The notes below the pieces were generated by a model. That model saw only the letters and a program-made list of their open reading frames with translations. It ran no database searches and was not told where the DNA came from. From a virus, in IMG/VR virus record IMGVR_UViG_3300042923_000189, positions 1 through 41,735 of that record: a stretch of 41,735 nt of DNA; one strand, written 5' to 3'. Position 1 is the stretch's first letter. Each line of letters opens with the position of its first letter. The position numbers were made by a program, and so were the translations under genes. Positions 25,683 through 35,128 of this stretch are shown piece after piece.

Positions 25683-26382
25683 ATACTTAGTGGCACTGGA
25701 CGATGGACACGGAATGAAAACAGCCGGTAAAAGAACACCTGAGATTCCGGAACTGAATAATCGAATTATCCACGAGAACGAGTTTAACCGTGCGGTAATA
25801 AATTATCTCGATGCTGAGCTTAAAAGATGCGGAATTGATACATTGTTAGTCGCTCCCACGGATGCCGACACCTCGTTATCAGCCAGGGTATGCCTTGCTA
25901 ATGATAACCATGCGGATTTATATGCGGCGATACATTATAATGCACTGGATGGCAAGTTTGACAGCAAGGATCCGAATGGACACTCGATACATATTTATCC
26001 GGGATCACGAAAGAGCAGAAGGCTTGCGGAATGCATTCATAAGTACCTAATCGAAGGAACAGAGCAGAATGATCGCGGTATCGTCGAAAGCAACTTCCAT
26101 GTTCTCAGGGAAACTAACATGCCAGCCATCTTAAGTGAGAACGGATTTATGGACAACAAGCGCGAAGCTCTGCTGATGATCGATAAAAACTTTCAGCGAG
26201 AGGTTGCAGTTGAGCATGCGAAAGGTATCTGCGATTATCTTGGAGTAATGTATATCCCCGAAGTAAAAACTGTTTATCGGCTACGTGTTGGCGAATATTC
26301 CGGACTGGACGAAGCAAACAAAGCACGGACAAGACTTAAGTCCTTAGGGTACGAGTCAACCGTGGTGGCTGATAAGATATAA
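25675..26382 (+). CDS. Endolysin: N-acetylmuramoyl-L-alanine amidase with SPOR domain
   Basis: The 235-residue protein has an Amidase_3 domain (residues ~1-190) with DDGHG, the ENEFNR glutamate, AAIHYNA and ILSENGFMDN motifs, the zinc ligands and catalytic Glu of this family. A short SPOR-like domain follows (about residues 197-235, YRLRVGEYSGLDEANKARTRL) that binds denuded glycan. No signal peptide is seen, so release requires the holin encoded upstream. It ends the lysis module. Confidence 0.92.
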   Translation: MAKYLVALDDGHGMKTAGKRTPEIPELNNRIIHENEFNRAVINYLDAELKRCGIDTLLVAPTDADTSLSARVCLANDNHADLYAAIHYNALDGKFDSKDPNGHSIHIYPGSRKSRRLAECIHKYLIEGTEQNDRGIVESNFHVLRETNMPAILSENGFMDNKREALLMIDKNFQREVAVEHAKGICDYLGVMYIPEVKTVYRLRVGEYSGLDEANKARTRLKSLGYESTVVADKI

Positions 26383-26495
26383 GGCTCGCTAGGGCTTGGC
26401 ATTATTGCAGATTTAAACCGCTGATAACAATACGGTGAATTGGTTGTCTAAAATCAAAACCGCCTTAAATGTCAATATACGAGGTCAAAATAAAA

Positions 26496-26520
26496 CCCCT
26501 GGGCTTGATCGGCTCAGGGG
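26496..26520 (-). terminator. Terminator between converging lysis and cargo genes
   Basis: CCCCTGGGC pairs with GCTCAGGGG (9 bp, one G-T) with a 7-base loop. On the minus strand the hairpin is followed by TTTTATTTT, so it ends leftward transcripts; on the plus strand the flanking AAAATAAAA / TTTTATTTT makes it probably bidirectional. Confidence 0.8.
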
Positions 26521-26527
26521 ATGAATT

Positions 26528-27124
26528 TTATTTTTCTTGTATCATCGCTTCAAGTTTCTTTTTAACATCATCGAGTTTGGCTTGTTTATCTTCGTCAACT
26601 TTGTCTGTAATAATAAATTCTGCATCTGGGGTAAGTATATGACCCCTATTTGTTACACCGGTATCCAACTCGTTTTCTTCACAGGCCTCAGCGATGGTAC
26701 GAAAGGTTTCATAATATTCTGGCGAACAATAGTATTCGTCATTTATTTCAACAACATTTCCGTCGATAATACTTTGCATAAGGTTCATTATGTCGTCCGT
26801 GGTATAGCGCACCCACTCAGTATAATCCTCATTAACCGTAACATAACACTTGAAATTTTTGTTACCTGATTTAGCAGTTACTGTAGCCTTACCGCCGTTT
26901 ATCGCAATCAGTGATCCATTCTTATTAACAGTGATAATATTTTTGTTATTACTGGACCACTTTACATTTTTATATTTGCTTGGCAATTTTAGTGTGCATT
27001 TCTTTCCCTCGTCAATTGCTATCTTCTTATTATCTACAATATCATATGTCTTAGTTGCTCCCATAGCCGAAACAGGAATAAACAACATATATAATAATAA
27101 AATCAAAACGGATAACCTTCTCAT
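26528..27124 (-). CDS. Secreted Ig-like (BIG2-type) cargo protein
   Basis: I choose ATG 27124, since AGGAGG lies just upstream on its strand. The ~198-residue protein has a clear signal peptide (MRRLSVLILLLYMLFIPVSA) and a following bacterial Ig-like 2 domain (KCTLKLPSKYKNVKWSSNN, VNKNGSLIAINGGKATVTAK, residues ~35-100). The C-terminal half is acidic and unassigned. It is transcribed leftward, just past the lysis module, where phages carry lysogenic-conversion genes. It probably acts at the outer surface of the lysogen. It directly follows an HTH gene in the same operon. Confidence 0.8.
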   Translation of the reverse strand: MRRLSVLILLLYMLFIPVSAMGATKTYDIVDNKKIAIDEGKKCTLKLPSKYKNVKWSSNNKNIITVNKNGSLIAINGGKATVTAKSGNKNFKCYVTVNEDYTEWVRYTTDDIMNLMQSIIDGNVVEINDEYYCSPEYYETFRTIAEACEENELDTGVTNRGHILTPDAEFIITDKVDEDKQAKLDDVKKKLEAMIQEK

Positions 27125-27125
27125 A

Positions 27126-27323
27126 TTACCTCCTAATTTCAACCAAGTCGCCTATATCGCATTTAAAATATTCTGCGAATCTCTCAAGCGATCGCAAGGT
27201 TATGTAGTCATTCTTATTTATCTTGGTAATTACATCGTTTGATATTCCGGTTGCCTCTTGAATGTCCTTCCATTTTAATTCACTATCTATTACCTTTTCT
27301 CTCAATTTCCTATACGTTACCAT
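27126..27323 (-). CDS. Cro/C1-type HTH regulator of cargo operon (65 aa)
   Basis: I start it at ATG 27323 (MVTYRKLREKVIDSEL), after GGGGGG on its strand, instead of a longer Met at 27353. It is a single small HTH domain of the HTH_26/YozG kind (KWKDIQEATGISNDVITKINKNDYITLRSLERFAEYF, residues ~15-52) with the GDLVEI end. It sits upstream of the secreted Ig-like gene with a promoter-embedded dyad, so it likely represses its own operon. Similar proteins in Firmicutes often act as single-domain autoregulators. Confidence 0.82.
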   Translation of the reverse strand: MVTYRKLREKVIDSELKWKDIQEATGISNDVITKINKNDYITLRSLERFAEYFKCDIGDLVEIRR

Positions 27324-27353
27324 ATGCAACCCCCCAAACGAAAAGATATACAT

Positions 27354-27382
27354 ATTTTACCATGATATTTATCATTTGTCGA
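27354..27382 (-). promoter_or_regulatory. Promoter with embedded dyad for the HTH/secreted-protein operon
   Basis: On the minus strand a -35 of TCGACA (plus 27377-27382) and a -10 of TAAAAT (plus 27354-27359) are 17 bp apart. A dyad with 6-bp arms (ATGATA and TATCAT at 27362-27375) fills the spacer, an ideal site for autorepression by the adjacent HTH protein. Confidence 0.55.
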
Positions 27383-27393
27383 TTAGGACAAGC

Positions 27394-27508
27394 AAAATCA
27401 GAAAAACAACTGTAAAAAGATTAAAAACTCTGAAAACAGCGGAAACAAGTACAAGCCTACGCCATATAGTATTAACAAAGATAAAAAAGTTTAAACACAC
27501 CACATAAA
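27394..27508 (+). other. Candidate parC centromere: phased A-tracts
   Basis: A-tracts centred near 27396, 27404, 27416, 27425, 27435 and 27444 recur roughly every 9-10 bases, and more lie at 27478, 27486, 27494 and 27507. Such phasing gives bent DNA. It lies directly upstream of the ParM-like gene, the normal place of a type II partition centromere. No conserved ParR-box sequence is asserted. Confidence 0.5.
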
Positions 27509-27538
27509 CAAAATTAAAATTGTTTAAGGAGGGATTGC

Positions 27539-28417
27539 ATGTTAGGTATTGACAAGGGAACTACATATACCAAGACCGATCAGAAGATTTGCATTAAGAG
27601 CACCATAAGAGAGTACCAGGAGAGCGACATCTCACTGCAGAACGATAAGCTGATTCTCGAGATGGAGAACAAGAAATGGGTGATTGGCGAGAAAGGGAAT
27701 TATTCAACTGATCTAATGAAATCTCAGCACTATAATACAAAAGCTCTCGTACTAACAGCTATAGCACAAAGTACTACGGATGAATGTATTATCACTGACA
27801 TTGTGACAGGGTTGCCGATCGCACTGTATTCCGGCCAGAAACAAATAATGAAGAATTTATTCCAAGATACAAATAATGAGATCCGGATCAACGGAATTAG
27901 AAAAAGGATACGTATAAGAAACGCAGAAGTTTTTCCCGAAGCTGCAGGAGCTTTTTATTCTCAGAACGAGTTTACAGATGCATTAATAATCGACGTAGGT
28001 GGTCTTAGTATTGACACGGCGCAGTTTAAGGGCGGCAAACTGATTAAGTACTCAACTTATTCGATGGGTATGATGAAGCTGTTTTCAAAAATTGCAAACA
28101 AAGTTAACTCGGAACATGATTTATCTCTTACAGAGTGGGATATTGAAGATCTGCTAAAAGACGGATTATTTATATACGGAAAGCAAGTCGATATCGGAGC
28201 TGAAAGGATAATCATTGAGCACGCAAAGGAAATAATCGAAAGGCTTTCTTTAGAATACGATCTAAAAAGTCTAAAGAATATACTTATCACCGGAGGCCCG
28301 GCTGATTGGATAAGTAAGTATCTAGCCAAATATATTCCACAACTTCGAACAATGAAAAACAATCAATATAGCAATGCAATAGGATACAGCAATATCGGGA
28401 GGGTGATATTCGGGTGA
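27539..28417 (+). CDS. parM: ParM-like actin-family segregation ATPase
   Basis: The 292-residue protein has the actin-fold nucleotide motifs: phosphate-1 loop (GIDKGTTYTK, residues 3-12), phosphate-2 loop (IIDVGGLSID, ~150) and adenosine motif (ILITGGPADW, ~250). An AAGGAGGG ribosome binding site precedes ATG 27539. It polymerises into filaments that push apart DNA copies held by ParR. The length is in the range of ParM and Alp proteins. It overlaps the ParR-like gene by four bases, giving a compact parMR operon behind the candidate centromere. Confidence 0.88.
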   Translation: MLGIDKGTTYTKTDQKICIKSTIREYQESDISLQNDKLILEMENKKWVIGEKGNYSTDLMKSQHYNTKALVLTAIAQSTTDECIITDIVTGLPIALYSGQKQIMKNLFQDTNNEIRINGIRKRIRIRNAEVFPEAAGAFYSQNEFTDALIIDVGGLSIDTAQFKGGKLIKYSTYSMGMMKLFSKIANKVNSEHDLSLTEWDIEDLLKDGLFIYGKQVDIGAERIIIEHAKEIIERLSLEYDLKSLKNILITGGPADWISKYLAKYIPQLRTMKNNQYSNAIGYSNIGRVIFG

Positions 28418-28665
28418 GGAAAACAAAGGGATTCTCATATGATCCAGAAATAGATAAGGATGTGATAAATCATATCGATAGCCAGCAGAATGGAAGCCAA
28501 TATGTTTGGGGACTTGTGAGAGCAGATATGTCAGAGAACAGCATTGAGAACATTGTAAACAGACAGATAAAAAAATACCTGCAGGATCACGAAATCACTG
28601 CAGGCTCTAAAGAAAAGGATATTAAACTTGATGCAAACGAGATTAAAAACATACTCAATCTATAG
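28414..28665 (+). CDS. parR: ParR-like centromere-binding protein (83 aa)
   Basis: A GTG start overlaps the ParM stop (GTGA), with GGGAGGGTGAT upstream. The N-terminal half (KTKGFSYDPEIDKDVINHID, then QNGSQYVWGLVRADM) has the ribbon-helix-helix-like pattern of ParR-type proteins: one short strand, then two helices, with a Lys/Asp-rich C terminus that would contact ParM. Position directly after ParM supports this. A 230-base AT-rich gap without an apparent gene follows. Confidence 0.75.
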   Translation: MRKTKGFSYDPEIDKDVINHIDSQQNGSQYVWGLVRADMSENSIENIVNRQIKKYLQDHEITAGSKEKDIKLDANEIKNILNL

Positions 28666-28894
28666 GGTGCACTTACTCCATGGAACGTCATTTCAATCAA
28701 CTGACCTTCGTCAATTTCATTACATGACTAGTGTATGCAAGGACCGTTTGTACAAATACCTATTTTGCTCGTACTAATTCTTAAATTATTATTAAATTCC
28801 ATATATAACAAATCGAGTTATTTTTAAAAATATGACTATTGAAACCGTTGCCGCTAACATTGTATCACCTCTAATCTGAAAGGATGTATGTATT

Positions 28895-29110
28895 ATGAAT
28901 TTTGATGAAATTGGTAAAATGGTTTTTAATGCTTTGATTAATGCAGGCTATTGGGTAATCGCTATCATTACACTTAAAGAAGTTCTTTCTTGTGGATCCA
29001 GAAGAGATATTGAAGGCATTATTAAATCGATCTTAGGCGGAGTAGTAAGCTATGCTGCATTGTATTTCATTACCGATATGCTCGACAAAGTAAAGGATGT
29101 GATGGATTGA
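28895..29110 (+). CDS. Two-pass small membrane protein, VirB2/TrbC-like (71 aa)
   Basis: ATG 28895 follows AAAGGATG. The protein has two hydrophobic segments (residues ~17-33, GYWVIAIITLKEV, and ~44-60, ILGGVVSYAALYFITDM) separated by a short charged loop (CGSRRDIEG). Size and topology match pilin-like VirB2/TrbC or Maff2-type proteins found in Firmicutes conjugative elements. It is the first gene of a tightly overlapping trio with another small membrane protein and a VirB4-like ATPase. The 230 bases upstream contain a possible TTGAAA -35, but no convincing -10. Confidence 0.6.
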   Translation: MNFDEIGKMVFNALINAGYWVIAIITLKEVLSCGSRRDIEGIIKSILGGVVSYAALYFITDMLDKVKDVMD

Positions 29111-29370
29111 TGTATTTAAAAACTGAATTAATTGGTGGTTGGACCGGTGATCAGCTCGATCAGCTCAAAGATAGTATTGCAAGCGGTATTTATGAAGGGT
29201 TTGTAAAATGCATGGATGTAATTTGTAACTTTGTTTTTTGGGGATCCAAGATTGGTATATTGTGCTGCGCAATAGTTTTTATAGCAAGCAAAGATCAGAA
29301 GGCTGTATCAACGGCGGTTAAGCTTGCTCTTATATATCTTATAACTGCGGTGGTGAGTGGCCAATTATGA
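29110..29370 (+). CDS. Second small membrane protein of the T4SS-like trio (86 aa)
   Basis: ATG 29110 overlaps the upstream TGA (TGATG). There are two hydrophobic segments (residues ~44-61, FVFWGSKIGILCCAIVF, and ~68-82, VKLALIYLITAVVSG). An amphipathic N-terminal part precedes them (WTGDQLDQLKDSIASGIYEG), as in small accessory channel proteins of Gram-positive conjugation systems. The stop overlaps the start of the ATPase gene in an ATGA. Family identity is not certain. Confidence 0.6.
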   Translation: MYLKTELIGGWTGDQLDQLKDSIASGIYEGFVKCMDVICNFVFWGSKIGILCCAIVFIASKDQKAVSTAVKLALIYLITAVVSGQL

Positions 29371-31637
29371 AAAAGCTTTCAATGCCGGTATCTAAATATT
29401 TTGAATTTAAGCAGCCCAAATACATATATCTGAAGCTTACGCCTTCCACGTCAATAAGAAATTACAGCACTGATAACCTTCTTAAGTTAATTGCATCCCT
29501 GTATAGAAGCTTCAGCCAACAGATAAGCATAATAAATAAAAAGATGTTTTTTGAATGCTCCGCAAAGGTTTCGTTCTATATCTACATGGAAAAGCATCGT
29601 GTTGAATTCTTCTTTATTGTGCCCGAGGTACACTATTCATTGTTTAAAGATAAATTAACAGATACATGGAGCAATAAGATAACAATAAGTATTGTGTCCG
29701 AAATACCTTTGTTTAGTCATGGATGTGTAAAATATTATATGGATTATAAAAAAGAGGATCCTATGAGTCTTGTGACAGATAAAAGGAACAATGCATTGCT
29801 TGCGTCTGAGCTTGGCACTCTATACGCAATGGAGGATGGAGACAAAGCAGGTGTGATTTTTAATTTTATTCCGATGGATCAACATAAATGGAAAGCAGAT
29901 TTTGAAAATACTATTAAGAGACTGAAGAATGATATGCCGATAAACAAGAACAAAATCAATTTTTGGGTATTATTATCATGGGCGATAGGGTTGGTAGTCA
30001 AAGCAATGGAGATAGGGCTTGAAAGCTTGAGCATAGGAGAATCCGATGTTAAGAGCGTAGGCGAATTTACAATAACTGATGATACCAGAAATAAAAAGAG
30101 CAGCGTAGTCGTGGGAACGCAGATCATTTGCCTTAGCGAGAGCGATAATAAACTACGCGAATATAATACTGCCAAATCACTGTGTCATAGCTTTCAATGC
30201 CTTACATCAAACGATAATGAGCTGATCGGGAGAAGATTGCGCACCAAAGAATTAAGCATTCTAAGCACAACAATCAGCAAGGCTGCAGTACTGAAGATGT
30301 CACCGAGAGAAACACAGCACTTCATATCGCTTCCCGGCCTGGATCTCCTAGAGGAGCACAAGATTATTGACCGTCTGGAAGTATTGGAGCATGAGGTACC
30401 GGGAGAATTAAAGACCGGCATTATAAGTCTAGGCGATACCACTTACAAAGGAGATCCATACAGGGCCTACCTTCCGACCACGAAGAATGAGCGATGTCTC
30501 ACAGTGGTTCTTATAGGTCCAACCAGATCAGGAAAAACCACCGCAATCAGCAACTTTTCAAACGATGCCAGGAATGGCGGTGAGTGTACAATTATTTTCG
30601 ATTTTTGCGGTAACTGCGAGCTCTCTGATAGTGTCAATAAGGATGTTGGCAATGTACTCAATATTGATTGCAGCGACCTTAAGCAACTTCAGGGCATGGG
30701 TTACAACGAAGCTAATCACCACGAAACCGATCCGATAAAACAATATGAAAACGCAAAGATCCAGGCATCGAACTTACTTGCGCTTATCGATGCAGTAAAC
30801 AGTGAAGACAGGGACCTTAAAGCGAAGATGAATAAGTACTTAAGCGCTGCAGCTCTCCTGGTATTCATAAGTAACGGAAAGATAAAGGATGTGTTTGGAG
30901 TCCTTCAGGATCACCGGTTAAGATGGGATTATATCAATGCTGTTCCAAGCAATCAAATGGAGTATATGGCTGAATACATAGATACTATGAAGGAGATTGA
31001 CGATACTAAGCAAGGCGAGGTTATTGGAACTAAATATAACACTGCTATTGGTGGTATTATGGATCGTGTTGGGCAGTTAAAGCAAAACACTTACATGGAG
31101 CTGATGCTTAAAAAGGACTGCAAGAATAACTTTAACTTAATCGATGAGATGCAGAACAATCAGATCATTTGTTTCCGGATGCCGGAGCACATGTTTAGTA
31201 CGCAGGCTGAGAAAGATGCTTATTGCACTTATTGGATGACGAAGATATGGCTTGCTCTTAAATTCCGGAAGGCCTATATTCCGGATGCTCAGCATATTAA
31301 AGTTAATGTTATCGTTGATGAGCTTTCCCAAGTGCCGCACTGTCAAGAGTTTATCCGGAGTAAGCTCAGTCAGATGGCGAAGTTTAACTGTAAAATGATT
31401 ATTAGTTGCCATTATCTGAATCAGATCAAGATTATCCGGGAAGAATTAAAGAGTGCAAACAGTAGTTACATGCTAATATCTGGATGCGATAAGGAGAATT
31501 ACAAGGAGTTGAAGGAGGAGCTGGCGCCTTACTCGGTCGATGATCTCCTGAGACTTAAGAAGTATCACAGCCTTAATCTGATTAAGCTTCCTGACGGATA
31601 TGTTACGTTTGTCACCAAGTTACCAAAACCGCTATAA
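29367..31637 (+). CDS. VirB4/HerA-like conjugation ATPase
   Basis: The 756-residue protein has an N-terminal ~340-residue beta/alpha domain (including YIYLKLTPSTSIRNYS and FFFIVPEVHYSLF) as seen in Gram-positive VirB4-like proteins. MSPRETQHFISLPG then precedes a RecA-like ATPase with Walker A about residue 384 (GPTRSGKTT) and Walker B about residue 650 (VIVDELSQV), and a MIISCHYLNQ segment after it. Such proteins drive conjugative secretion or DNA translocation. It is coupled to two small membrane genes and lies after parMR. No relaxase is in the window. A HerA-like defence function is a possible alternative. Confidence 0.75.
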   Translation: MKKLSMPVSKYFEFKQPKYIYLKLTPSTSIRNYSTDNLLKLIASLYRSFSQQISIINKKMFFECSAKVSFYIYMEKHRVEFFFIVPEVHYSLFKDKLTDTWSNKITISIVSEIPLFSHGCVKYYMDYKKEDPMSLVTDKRNNALLASELGTLYAMEDGDKAGVIFNFIPMDQHKWKADFENTIKRLKNDMPINKNKINFWVLLSWAIGLVVKAMEIGLESLSIGESDVKSVGEFTITDDTRNKKSSVVVGTQIICLSESDNKLREYNTAKSLCHSFQCLTSNDNELIGRRLRTKELSILSTTISKAAVLKMSPRETQHFISLPGLDLLEEHKIIDRLEVLEHEVPGELKTGIISLGDTTYKGDPYRAYLPTTKNERCLTVVLIGPTRSGKTTAISNFSNDARNGGECTIIFDFCGNCELSDSVNKDVGNVLNIDCSDLKQLQGMGYNEANHHETDPIKQYENAKIQASNLLALIDAVNSEDRDLKAKMNKYLSAAALLVFISNGKIKDVFGVLQDHRLRWDYINAVPSNQMEYMAEYIDTMKEIDDTKQGEVIGTKYNTAIGGIMDRVGQLKQNTYMELMLKKDCKNNFNLIDEMQNNQIICFRMPEHMFSTQAEKDAYCTYWMTKIWLALKFRKAYIPDAQHIKVNVIVDELSQVPHCQEFIRSKLSQMAKFNCKMIISCHYLNQIKIIREELKSANSSYMLISGCDKENYKELKEELAPYSVDDLLRLKKYHSLNLIKLPDGYVTFVTKLPKPL

Positions 31638-31644
31638 ACAATAG

Positions 31645-31674
31645 AGCCCTTGCCTTAACCGGTGAGGGCTTTTT
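31645..31674 (+). terminator. Terminator after the VirB4-like gene
   Basis: AGCCCT pairs with AGGGCT around a 14-base loop, with a T run on the plus strand, ending the accessory operon. A near relative occurs at 32522, where the loop likewise begins TGCCTTG. Confidence 0.75.
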
Positions 31675-31684
31675 CCAAAAAGAA

Positions 31685-31704
31685 AACCCCGCATTTCTGC
31701 GAGG
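31685..31704 (-). terminator. Terminator for leftward transcripts
   Basis: CCCCGCA pairs with TGCGAGG (one mismatch) around a TTTC loop. On the minus strand it is followed by TTTTCTTTTT. It would stop transcripts from the leftward HTH gene at 32063-32356. Confidence 0.6.
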
Positions 31705-31939
31705 CTCTCTTCTTCTAAAATTTCTAAAATCTTTTTTCTTAAACAAATTCACCACCCATATATTATCATGACAAGATAAAATTGTATAGTTGGCAAAACG
31801 GAGATTATTACAAGCGATTATATATAAAATAAACAACATAGTAAAATATACCCACCAGCATATCTGAGTTAAAAATATATCATGTTTATCCCATATCATG
31901 TGGATTACAATTAATTAACACAATAAACTATACATAATT

Positions 31940-32037
31940 TACCATAATTGGACGGTTTTACCATTGTCGTTTAATGGTAGATTGTAGTATATTGATGGTA
32001 ATAAATATGATCCGATCCGGTAGGCGAAATCATGGTA
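31940..32037 (+). repeat. TACCAT/ATGGTA hexamer array
   Basis: TACCAT occurs at 31940-31945 and 31959-31964, and its inverse ATGGTA at 31974-31979, 31995-32000 and 32032-32037. TACCATT (31959-31965) and AATGGTA (31973-31979) form a perfect 7-bp dyad. The array sits in a 424-base gene-free, AT-rich region (31638-32062). It may be an operator cluster for the adjacent leftward HTH protein or an iteron-like region. Otherwise the region holds two terminators and no gene. Confidence 0.55.
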
Positions 32038-32062
32038 AATACGCACTATGACCCCATTATTA

Positions 32063-32356
32063 TTAACTCTTACCCCGAAGGCTTATAACATAATTTATAT
32101 ATTTTTCGACATCTAGTCGCTCGCTGTCCGTTAACCGTGGTATACTTTTTTCACCGGTTAACCACGATATAGATATTCCTAAATATTCACACAGTTTTAC
32201 TGCATCCGATAATGGTAAGTCACATTTACCGCCTTCAAACCTTGAATATTTGGCTTGACTAATACCAATGGATTCACTGACATCGCTTTGCTTTTTTGAT
32301 AAGCTTAATCTGACATTATAGGCACGTAGACCAACCTCATAAGCATCATATTTCAT
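32063..32356 (-). CDS. XRE-family HTH regulator (97 aa)
   Basis: I start at ATG 32356, with AGGGG upstream on its strand. The protein has a Cro/C1 HTH of the usual length (LSKKQSDVSESIGISQAKYSRFEGGKC, residues ~18-45; KLCEYLGISISWLTGEK follows). The C-terminal tail (DSERLDVEKYINYVISLR) is short, with no peptidase domain. It is encoded leftward, flanked by the hexamer array on its downstream side and by AT-rich repeats upstream. It probably regulates itself and perhaps the cargo genes. Confidence 0.85.
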   Translation of the reverse strand: MKYDAYEVGLRAYNVRLSLSKKQSDVSESIGISQAKYSRFEGGKCDLPLSDAVKLCEYLGISISWLTGEKSIPRLTDSERLDVEKYINYVISLRGKS

Positions 32357-32379
32357 CTTATGCACCCCTGCCAAATATT

Positions 32380-32460
32380 ATCATATATGCAGATATGCAT
32401 ACAAGTATTCCTGTGATGATATACAGATATGAAAAACCATATTCAGAAATGCATATGGAT
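32380..32460. promoter_or_regulatory. AT-rich operator-like region upstream of the leftward HTH gene
   Basis: Short related words recur: GCAGATATGCAT (32395-32406), ACAGATATG (32421-32429), CAGAAATGCATATG (32444-32457). A leftward promoter with -35 TTGTAT and -10 GATAAT or TAATAT (spacer 16 or 18) can be drawn inside it. I regard this as a candidate operator cluster for the XRE protein. Confidence 0.4.
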
Positions 32461-32521
32461 ATACACTGATGGATATTTGCACGAACCGGGAAGATGATAA
32501 TCAACTGTTAATATGCTTTAT

Positions 32522-32545
32522 CCCCTTGCCTTGCCGTGAGGGGTT
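32522..32545 (+). terminator. Terminator hairpin before the SOS-box promoter
   Basis: CCCCT at 32522-32526 pairs with AGGGG at 32539-32543, loop TGCCTTGCCGTG, followed by TTTATATA. It resembles the terminator at 31645 in loop sequence. Confidence 0.6.
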
Positions 32546-32606
32546 TATATATAACATCTTAATTCGTCATGTCACAAAGGCGTGGCATCACATATATTTT
32601 TAGTTA

Positions 32607-32635
32607 TTGAAAACGAACAGGCGTTCTGATATAAT
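32607..32635 (+). promoter_or_regulatory. Consensus promoter with LexA (SOS) box in the spacer
   Basis: -35 TTGAAA (32607-32612) and -10 TATAAT (32630-32635) are 17 bp apart. The spacer contains CGAACAGGCGTTCT (32614-32627), which matches the Gram-positive LexA box CGAAC-RNRY-GTTYC at all but the last base. Transcription would start about 32642 and lead into the 65-aa gene at 32686. Confidence 0.8.
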
Positions 32636-32685
32636 GACCTTAATTTCACCGCTGAGAACTATTGTTATTTAAAGGGGGCAATATA

Positions 32686-32883
32686 TTGAACAAAGCAATT
32701 GAAGAGCTTATTATTAAACGCTGCGAAGTGGCGAAGATGGAAGATGCCGAGTACTTGGAATGCGAAAGAGGAAAACGCGAACCGGAAGAGGTGCAGTCTC
32801 TGGCAGAAATAGCATGCTACAAAAAAGGATTGAGGGATGCAAAGAATTTATACATGTTGTTAGAATGTAGTGAAAAAATGTAG
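32686..32883 (+). CDS. SOS-controlled small protein beside attP (65 aa)
   Basis: A TTG start at 32686 follows an AAGGGGGC ribosome binding site; an ATG at 32662 lies upstream without spacing for a site. The product (after Met: NKAIEELIIKRCEVAKMEDA) is mostly helical, highly charged, with three Cys, and no DNA-binding motif I recognise. It is read from a strong promoter with a LexA box in the spacer and ends about 130 bases before the att core. An SOS-induced antirepressor or excisionase is the most attractive idea, because the phage repressor here lacks a cleavable domain. This role is inference. Confidence 0.65.
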   Translation: MNKAIEELIIKRCEVAKMEDAEYLECERGKREPEEVQSLAEIACYKKGLRDAKNLYMLLECSEKM

Positions 32884-32943
32884 TAAAATACGTGAAATAT
32901 TAGCATATATTGAACGGTATGAATAAATATGTTTAATATAAAG

Positions 32944-33002
32944 AACTCGCCAAAACCCAAGAAAAATAAGGGTTGTCCCTGTTTTCAATGGCTTGGCGAG
33001 TT
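32944..33002. repeat. 10-bp inverted repeat flanking the left side of attP
   Basis: AACTCGCCAA (32944-32953) and TTGGCGAGTT (32993-33002) are perfect inverses. They flank an A/T-rich and CCCTGTTTTCAA-containing stretch just left of the tRNA-derived core. They could be recombinase arm sites or a terminator for the 32686 gene. Confidence 0.5.
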
Positions 33003-33011
33003 GCTATTAGG

Positions 33012-33068
33012 CTAGACTAAGGATCTAGTTCCAGCAATGGAGTAGGGGTTCAAGTCCCCTCGACTGCA
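33012..33068 (+). other. attP core: 3' part of a tRNA-Leu(AAG) gene
   Basis: The stretch folds as an anticodon arm (CTAGA, loop CTAAGGA with anticodon AAG, TCTAG), a long variable arm (TCCA, GCAA loop, TGGA) as in tRNA-Leu, a T-arm (AGGGG, TTCAAGT, CCCCT), and acceptor strand CGACTGC with discriminator A. The matching 5' acceptor GCAGTCG and D-arm are not found upstream. The integrase gene lies 87 bases to the right. This is how an attP that targets a tRNA gene looks. Confidence 0.8.
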
Positions 33069-33154
33069 GTAAGTAAAATCAAGGGTTCCAGTGTTTTCGC
33101 AAGAAGATGTTGGAGCTTCTTTTTTTGCCGTGTAGTAAAAAATGTAGTGGGCAA

Positions 33155-34387
33155 CTATATTGCTTTAAACATTTTTTTACGTTCCTCTCGGGTGAGAGTC
33201 TTTTCTTCTGTGGTGGTAGTCTTCTCAGGTTTGACATTTGGCTTGATGGAATTATTAATTTTATTGGCTGCTTCTTCATCCATGTCTTTTAATACATGCT
33301 GATAAACTTCTCTCAGTGTAGACACTGTAGAATGCCCAAGACGCTCCGCAGCAACTTTGTCCGATATATTTCCTCTCAACATCACAACTGCATTGTAATG
33401 CCTCAGGTCGTGTAAACGAATATGCGGAAGATTGTACTTGTCCAACAAATAATTAAATCTCTGAGAAAGAGATTTCGGTTTCCACCGGGTGACAACATTG
33501 GTATCTGAACCCGGCTTTCCACAAGATACATAATGTCTTTGTAATGTTTCGATGACATATTCAGGGGCTGATATGGTTCTCTTGCTTGTTTCGTTCTTGG
33601 GATCCTTCTCGATATTACTTGTAAAGTTTACCATGGTCTGTTCTATGGTGATAGTTTTTGCCTTGAAGTCTACATTTTCCCATCGCAATCCGAGAATTTC
33701 GCCACGCCTTAATCCTGATCCGGCCCCCAGGATGATCGGAACTTCTTCATCTTTTCCATGAACAAAATCAAGTAATTTAAGAAACTGGTCTTTGTTATAT
33801 ACAACAGGTCTATATTTTACCATAGGAGACAACTCTACTCCATCGGTCGGGTTAGTCCTGATTTTGCCATTAATCATCGCATAGTGTAGTGCAGCTTTAA
33901 GAAATTTATTAAGCTTAATAACAGTGTTGATGCTGAGCTTCGGCATTGTTTGGGTGACAATCTTGTCGCCATGCTTAACTTTATGCTCCCTCTCATTAGA
34001 TAGTTTGAAATTATAAAACGTATCCAGCGTTATGGTTTTTATATCTTTGAGTTTCGTATTACCAAAATAAGGCTCAAAATGCACATCAATATACATTTTG
34101 AATAGTTCTGCGGTAGTCTTTTCCCACTTTGCCTTGTCTGGGCGTTTTGATTTTGGGTCCCACATATCATATCCGGCTCTTATCCGGTGATATGATTTCA
34201 AAAACGCAATCAATGTATCTTTGTTCGGAGGAGTATACTGCCCGGTTCGAATCTCAAATAAAATCTCACCTGCTTTTTCAATAACTTCTTTTTCTGACCA
34301 TCCGTAGATGAGTTTTGGTCTACTCGCTCCAATATCAACAGGATATACCCATCTACCATCTGAATTTCTCTGATAAGGTTTTCCCAT
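33155..34387 (-). CDS. int: Tyrosine integrase
   Basis: The start at 34387 follows AGGAGGTAATTGT on its strand (an upstream Met at 34411 lacks a ribosome binding site). The 410-residue protein has an N-terminal Arm-DNA-binding domain (AP2-like, MGKPYQRNSDGRWVYPVDIG), a core-binding SAM-like domain (~70-190), and a catalytic domain with GLRRGEILGLRW (first Arg), LHDLRH (HxxR), GHSTVSTLREVYQHV (His and the Tyr nucleophile). It mediates integration and excision at the tRNA-derived att site. It starts just after the stop of the repressor gene, so the two are one leftward operon. Confidence 0.95.
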   Translation of the reverse strand: MGKPYQRNSDGRWVYPVDIGASRPKLIYGWSEKEVIEKAGEILFEIRTGQYTPPNKDTLIAFLKSYHRIRAGYDMWDPKSKRPDKAKWEKTTAELFKMYIDVHFEPYFGNTKLKDIKTITLDTFYNFKLSNEREHKVKHGDKIVTQTMPKLSINTVIKLNKFLKAALHYAMINGKIRTNPTDGVELSPMVKYRPVVYNKDQFLKLLDFVHGKDEEVPIILGAGSGLRRGEILGLRWENVDFKAKTITIEQTMVNFTSNIEKDPKNETSKRTISAPEYVIETLQRHYVSCGKPGSDTNVVTRWKPKSLSQRFNYLLDKYNLPHIRLHDLRHYNAVVMLRGNISDKVAAERLGHSTVSTLREVYQHVLKDMDEEAANKINNSIKPNVKPEKTTTTEEKTLTREERKKMFKAI

Positions 34388-34391
34388 ACAA

Positions 34392-34709
34392 TTACCTCCT
34401 ATATAAATCAATCATCTGGTCAAGCTTCTCGGGAGATACGTCTTCCTTGATAGCTTTATCGATCACGCTTATATATTCTTTTTTGTTAGCAAACTGTATA
34501 GTGCTAAAATCTCCGTTGCCCGCAAGCCAATCCAGCGTAACGCCAAAATAATCAGCTAAGCTTATCAATGCCGATAATCCAGGCTCAGACTTCCCATGCT
34601 CATATCTCCATATTAATGATTTTGTGCTGTCAACTGCTTCAGCGAGTGTTTCATATGATAGCTCTTTCCTTGTTCTTAACATATTCAGCCTTTTCGCAAA
34701 CTCATTCAT
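34392..34709 (-). CDS. CI-like repressor (105 aa), HTH only
   Basis: I start at ATG 34709; GAGG lies ten bases upstream on its strand. The HTH is clear (RKELSYETLAEAVDSTKSLIWRYEHGKSEPGLSALISLADYF, residues ~13-52), and the C terminus is a short helical tail (DVSPEKLDQMIDLYRR) without an S24/LexA peptidase. It should keep the lysogenic state by binding the operators near 34825 and 35146. With no cleavable domain, it cannot respond to RecA directly. Its stop lies four bases from the integrase start. Confidence 0.85.
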   Translation of the reverse strand: MNEFAKRLNMLRTRKELSYETLAEAVDSTKSLIWRYEHGKSEPGLSALISLADYFGVTLDWLAGNGDFSTIQFANKKEYISVIDKAIKEDVSPEKLDQMIDLYRR

Positions 34710-34747
34710 TTTTATTATTCCTCTCAATGCGTTTCATTTATGTAACG

Positions 34748-34776
34748 ATTGTAGCAAAAAAGTTTAAAATATGCAA
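34748..34776 (-). promoter_or_regulatory. Leftward repressor/integrase promoter
   Basis: On the minus strand -35 is TTGCAT (plus 34771-34776) and -10 is TACAAT (plus 34748-34753), with a 17-bp spacer. Transcription would start about 34740, before the repressor ATG at 34709. Confidence 0.65.
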
Positions 34777-34786
34777 CAAAAAGTTA

Positions 34787-34815
34787 TTGACAAATATAAA
34801 TGTGGGGTTTATACT
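34787..34815 (+). promoter_or_regulatory. Rightward early promoter
   Basis: -35 TTGACA (34787-34792), a 17-bp spacer, and -10 TATACT (34810-34815). The operator at 34825 lies at the transcription start, well placed for repression of the Cro-like and downstream early genes. Confidence 0.85.
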
Positions 34816-34824
34816 ACATTTAGA

Positions 34825-34840
34825 GTTCTAAATATAGAAC
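34825..34840 (+). promoter_or_regulatory. Operator copy 1
   Basis: GTTCTAAATATAGAAC, with 6-bp arms GTTCTA/TAGAAC about a 4-bp centre. It sits directly downstream of the rightward -10. An identical 16-bp copy is at 35146. Confidence 0.8.
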
Positions 34841-34882
34841 GAAACAAACCCTAGTAACATAGTGAAAGGAGGACGAAAAACA

Positions 34883-35128
34883 ATGCAAAAATCGACACAA
34901 AAAAAAGACAAAAAGTTACATAATCTACGCAAGTTTCGTGACGAATTTGATATAAGACAGGAAGATTTTGCAGTACTTTTGGGGTATAAGAAGTCTAATT
35001 ACTGTCAAAAGGAGTTGGGTAAAATCGAATTTACGCTTTCTGAGATTATAAAAATTCAGAAAGCTATAAACGACAGGCGTGAAAAAATCGGTCTACCACC
35101 TGTGACGATGGATGAAATTTTCAGGTAA
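34883..35128 (+). CDS. Cro-like XRE-family HTH protein (81 aa)
   Basis: ATG 34883 follows AGGAGG at ten bases. A basic N-terminal stretch (QKSTQKKDKKLHNLRK) precedes an HTH (EFDIRQEDFAVLLGYKKSNYCQKELGKIEFTLSEIIKIQKAI). It is the first rightward gene, under a promoter with a repressor operator, the place of a Cro-type protein. The C terminus is short. It would oppose the leftward repressor gene during lytic growth or act as an early regulator. The DNA-binding part is rather Lys-rich. Confidence 0.82.
   Translation: MQKSTQKKDKKLHNLRKFRDEFDIRQEDFAVLLGYKKSNYCQKELGKIEFTLSEIIKIQKAINDRREKIGLPPVTMDEIFR

Follow-up and report, generated by a model that had tools for sequence, protein, structure and literature searches.

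The 41,735-base window analysed here, which is one whole virus record (IMG/VR IMGVR_UViG_3300042923_000189), very probably contains the attP of a temperate tailed Bacillota phage that targets a tRNA-Leu(AAG) gene through its adjoining tyrosine integrase, and the molecule was most likely sequenced in an unintegrated state. It is a textbook case of an attP located in a tRNA gene, belonging to a class already well described in the Islander paper (PMC4383910). The site indicates that an uncultured phage group integrates at tRNA-Leu(AAG) in certain Bacillota, and its clear and spaced arm repeats can be traced across divergent integrases. It can help to predict hosts and offers an integrase/attP pair, the principle itself being already established.

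The attP core and its integrase

The attP common core is the 57-nt 3' part of a tRNA-Leu(AAG) on the plus strand (33012-33068), which begins with the 5' strand of the anticodon stem and ends with the discriminator base. The first-pass annotation had described a 3' part without its 5' half, and this is confirmed to the base; the anticodon arm, long variable arm, T arm and acceptor strand that it listed can all be read off here. In order, the core consists of the anticodon stem and loop CTAGA-CTAAGGA-TCTAG (33012-33028, plus strand) with AAG at tRNA positions 34-36, a single T, the variable arm TCCA-GCAA-TGGA (33030-33041, plus strand), which can pair as it can in relatives, then GTA, a T arm of GGGG-TTCAAGT-CCCC closed by one further A-T pair, the 3' acceptor strand CGACTGC and the discriminator A. 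The inverted CTAGA/TCTAG sequences of the anticodon arm would be the core-type integrase sites, and the anticodon loop between them (33017-33023, plus strand) is the presumed point of strand exchange, in keeping with the junctions of an integrated element described below.

Using ARAGORN, we found no tRNA gene in the 41.7-kb window and none in the 700 nt around the site, and hence no full-length tRNA on the same contig, the presence of which, in the annotation's view, would have spoken against a free attP. A second copy of the core is likewise absent from the contig, given that a search at up to three mismatches finds a single occurrence of the anticodon-arm 17-mer and a single one of the T-arm/acceptor 27-mer in the window (0.09 and 0.00 occurrences, respectively, expected by chance). 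The annotation had also called for a comparison with tRNA-Leu(AAG) genes. In a BLASTN search of whole genomes, 58 nt align with full-length genes of this type at 88% identity (E down to 3.4e-14), and the differences from the best match are in the variable arm. Two results do not favour the tRNA reading: the isolated 61-nt strand folded alone is not unusually stable (z -0.63, not significant), and Rfam gives no tRNA match in 26300-34500, where a 17-nt stretch of the T arm weakly matches tmRNA (E 0.23), an outcome that may be expected of a fragment. The exact 57-mer occurs in none of the IMG/VR stretches searched, from which the window's own record was possibly left out, and GenBank phages have no DNA similarity to positions 20000-41735 of the window.

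The gene next to the tRNA part had been taken for an integrase, correctly so: it matches PF00589 (E 4.1e-17) and phrog_1. It lies on the minus strand (33155-34411), convergent with the tRNA part, and its intact reading frame encodes a tyrosine integrase of 418 aa as listed from TTG, with the first ATG at residue 9. An HTH repressor-like gene (34392-34727, minus strand) adjoins it. Directly past the tRNA 3' part, on the plus strand, a consensus match to a terminator-like hairpin followed by a T run (33083-33118) could end transcription of the rebuilt tRNA; such consensus sites number 9 in 26300-34900, compared with 5.2 expected in shuffles.

Arm repeats and layout in relatives

Searching genome contigs for the integrase gave four loci, of which one is close. 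This locus, L002, is JARBUM010000227.1, a 3.3-kb contig of a metagenome-assembled genome (MAG) labelled Pelosinus, and its integrase is 83% identical; the other three encode integrases of 25-27% identity beside tRNA-Trp or tRNA-Gln genes. The same scan of viral contigs gave a single locus, L006 from IMG/VR, also at 83%, and the L002 sequence is nearly the same as that of L006. In both, the site has the position relative to the integrase that it has in the window, and a tRNA gene is absent. A gapped pattern search of viral contigs located the core in three stretches, namely the record of L006 and two more distant relatives, L171 and L172, with integrases at 54% (over 170 aa) and 51% identity to that of the window.

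The core is flanked on both sides by paired TGTAGT repeats, at the same distances in the window, L006 and L002. The P-arm pair, TGTAGTGAAAAAATGTAGT (32866-32884, plus strand), lies at -146 and -133 from the core, and the P'-arm pair, TGTAGTAAAAAATGTAGT (33131-33148, plus strand), at +62 and +74 from the core end; both sequences are identical in L006 and L002. The corresponding motif is TATAGCC in L171, at -146/-133 and +40/+52, and TGTAGCC in L172, at -145/-132 and +40/+52, so that the P' distance differs between the two groups by 22 bp, or about two helical turns. Spacing that is kept while the motif changes is what arm-type sites would show, which suggests that the repeats are putative arm-type sites bound by the integrase. 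With 500 Markov samples per sequence, paired 6-mers on both sides of the core appeared in one sample for L006 and in none for the window, L171 or L172, in a test for which motif and spacing were picked after the repeats had been seen. Another set of repeats, D1 (32959/33071), was considered for the arm sites and dropped in favour of the TGTAGT pairs, which keep their position and pairing in relatives.

Comparison of the window with L006 separates conserved from variable stretches. Identity is complete in the two arm pairs (19/19 and 18/18), the anticodon arm (18/18) and the stretch from T arm to discriminator (27/27), whereas the intervening stretches agree at 46/59, 53/68 and 56/62 positions and the variable arm at 3/12. 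The interval between P arm and core also holds a 10-nt inverted repeat, AACTCGCCAA at 32944-32953 and TTGGCGAGTT at 32993-33002, 39 nt apart; it is largely conserved in L006 and could be an accessory protein site or a hairpin. Farther out on the P-arm side, a small ORF (32662-32883, plus strand, 73 aa as listed) and a gene for a Cro/CI-type HTH regulator (32063-32374, minus strand) have homologues beside attP in L002, L006, L171 and L172. The complete attP layout of the window, core plus both arm regions, recurs in three virus contigs (L006, L171, L172) and one MAG contig (L002), which supports the earlier reading of the site as an attP.

Target tRNA genes and the integrated state

The Pelosinus label of L002 pointed to a possible host. 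Among eight genomes of the genus there is no strong core match besides this phage contig, so we rejected Pelosinus as host as unproven; the label may be a binning error. In the class of the MAG, 28 of 380 genomes match the core at E<=0.001, the MAG included, the other matches being weaker than the phage contig, and the 16 class loci given to ARAGORN comprise mostly Leu(TAG) or other Leu genes and no Leu(AAG). A phylum sample yielded matches at E<=1e-6 in 9 of 398 genomes, again with the MAG included, and one of these, G598, has a tRNA-Leu(AAG). G598 belongs to an order of the Bacillota in which 92 of 392 genomes match the core at E<=1e-6; ARAGORN calls Leu(AAG) at 29 of 30 loci there (L107-L136), as well as in 18 of another 20 regions.

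In L002, L006 and L171 the core is an exact tRNA gene sequence of this order, and that of L172 is one base off one of its tRNA types. The window core differs from the commonest type in the variable arm only, and its variable arm is found in none of 33 distinct host 3' strings, some of which are distinct merely through ARAGORN end trimming. Nothing above 88% identity to the core was found in 380 class, 398 phylum and 392 order genomes or in 58 and 22 genomes of two families, which are overlapping draws, and neither an integrated copy of the window phage or its 83% relatives nor the host species of the window phage turned up among the genomes searched. The missing variable arm and the missing integrated copy weigh against the proposed explanation. 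We infer the host clade of the window phage.

The layout suggests how integration would proceed. The tyrosine integrase (33155-34411) would recombine the anticodon arm of the core with the identical stretch of a host tRNA-Leu(AAG) gene, with the exact crossover presumably in the anticodon loop. The host 5' half and the 3' half brought in by the phage would then make up a working tRNA, with the phage-borne terminator behind it, and the host's own 3' half would end up at the opposite end of the prophage. When the 5' half of L132 (G1017), a related tRNA and not one from the proven host, is combined with the 3' part in the window, ARAGORN predicts a full tRNA-Leu(AAG) with 7/7 acceptor pairs.

The annotation had expected an integrated copy to show the full tRNA at one junction, and this is borne out by a distantly related 25.6-kb element that is integrated in G1111, a genome of the same order as G598 (L177/L178, G1111:C4:77737-103476). 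The element has a full tRNA-Leu(AAG) at one end and, 25.6 kb away at the other, a displaced 3' part whose first bases are the ACTAAGG of the anticodon arm, which is where identity between the two junctions begins on the 5' side. It encodes an internal integrase of 29% identity and has one arm pair per junction, at +62/+74 and -127/-115. Because the variable arms of its rebuilt and displaced 3' parts differ, an element-borne variable arm unlike that of the host has at least one parallel. We regard it as quite unlikely that such elements overwrite the variable-arm allele of the host tRNA-Leu(AAG) in a swap that is itself selected, for example through altered recognition by a nuclease or a competing element.

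Class 'A' of Islander comprises tyrosine-integrase elements that target the anticodon-loop sublocation of tRNA genes, as set out in PMC4383910. Such elements and the window are alike in carrying a tRNA 3' part with a tyrosine integrase adjacent to it, and in an integration that restores the tRNA and displaces the host fragment; there is no difference in kind, and what sets the window apart is its target, tRNA-Leu(AAG) in an order of Bacillota. The attP of mycobacteriophage Boilgate, at tRNA-Lys(TTT), has a core with five differences according to PMC10865867; host and tRNA are other than here, and the differences of the window from the sampled hosts are concentrated in the variable arm. The same paper describes tRNA-dependent lysogeny (Fionnbharth and others), which involves a common core of about 10 bp and a whole tRNA encoded by the phage, with no rebuilding of the tRNA. 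The window shares with these phages a tyrosine integrase at a tRNA gene but, unlike them, it has a core of 57 nt and no tRNA gene in 41.7 kb of an incomplete phage genome.

Among known phages, the large terminase of the window is 64-70% identical to those of the clade of Streptococcus phage EJ-1 and phage D6E, whose integrases are absent among the best 15 integrase matches listed. Terrisporobacter phage TPDSL_ph2 and the window have the same order of ATPase, integrase, repressor and replication genes; the TPDSL_ph2 integrase is 27% identical over 300 aa, and no tRNA-Leu(AAG) core was found in the 32.3 kb examined. The papers listed on tRNA attP sites deal broadly with integrases that target tRNA genes, and we recognised none of them as concerning this phage group, which does not mean that such a paper is lacking.

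State of the molecule and alternative explanations

Phage-type genes had been predicted on both sides of the core, and they are present. Terminase, portal, tape measure, holin and endolysin genes lie to the left, where host chromosomal genes would have pointed to an integrated prophage and phage modules were found instead; repressor-like genes, Erf, SSB and a primase/helicase lie to the right. The window ends have no exact repeat of 12 or more bases (up to 200) and so give no sign of a complete circular genome. At the left end, the ORF corresponds to the final 90 positions of a phage family that is 546 positions long, and at the right end to the first half of one with 633; these partial matches make the window look like an incomplete phage map opened outside the core. 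The map of an integrated prophage would open at the core. The boundary of an integrated prophage is not in evidence, given that the window has no tRNA and phage genes stand on both sides of the core. That core, P arm and P' arm lie together in mid-contig likewise argues that the molecule is probably not integrated. Hence, as the core lies between phage genes and either end of the window breaks off within one, we consider the molecule most likely to be unintegrated, whether circular, packaged or excised.

The strongest alternative, though unlikely, is that identical prophages stand in tandem at one tRNA-Leu(AAG) gene and that the site is an internal junction between them. Such a junction has the same sequence as attP, so that the two are indistinguishable from sequence alone, and tandem islands at tRNA genes are known, as described in the Islander paper (PMC4383910). 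The surroundings of the site speak against an array: a full tRNA is absent from the window, no host-type gene was recognised among the proteins scanned in the 33 kb left of the core and the 8.7 kb right of it, each contig end falls within a phage-family gene, and in three virus records the pattern search found one core-bearing stretch per record.

It is very unlikely that the phage normally persists like a plasmid and that the attP is a relic or in occasional use. An actin-like protein encoded at 27539-28417 (phrog_691 'partition protein', PF17989), with a small ORF downstream, would suit such persistence. However, the integrase frame is intact, the arm repeats and core are conserved, and no plasmid replication gene was recognised among the proteins scanned, a subset of the ORFs. 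An actin-like protein is moreover known from an integrated prophage, AlpC of CGP3 (PMC4446434), which counts against a plasmid-like state.

We find it barely credible that the site joins two different elements integrated successively at the same tRNA. One genomic locus, L174 (G931:C25), resembles such a junction, with two kinds of recombinase flanking one tRNA-Leu(AAG) core: 5' of it lies an integrase of this family, at 42-46% identity, and 3' of it a different recombinase. The locus, in which no arm motif was recognised, is possibly two elements in tandem; because of this second recombinase and the lack of a recognised arm motif, the simple layout does not fit every relative. In the window, by contrast, the genes on both sides and the arm repeats are conserved as a set in L006 and L002 and to a lesser degree in L171 and L172, and this shared two-sided synteny shows both sides of the core to belong to one phage. 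Phages do carry tRNA genes, yet a decayed tRNA gene that once served translation and had no part in integration is an extremely improbable source of the fragment, since similarity stops at the anticodon stem in the window, L002/L006, L171, L172 and L174 and the flanks hold an integrase and arm repeats (the repeats not being recognised in L174).

Besides the attP of a most likely free phage, the window contains a gene block to its left (27539-31637) that is a putative phage module. Following the actin-like gene are an 83-aa ORF, two small ORFs with a membrane-bound look as judged by eye, and a gene for a 756-aa VirD4/TrwB-like ATPase (29367-31637, phrog_5156). The ATPase also matches the PADLOC model mad8 (E 2.2e-8), probably just through a shared ATPase domain. 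The block has no match in the examined part of L006 or in 72,556 plasmid records. L171 has the same block order beside its attP, where an actin-like protein is encoded too and the ATPase is 47% identical, and in TPDSL_ph2 a 29% identical ATPase adjoins the integrase.
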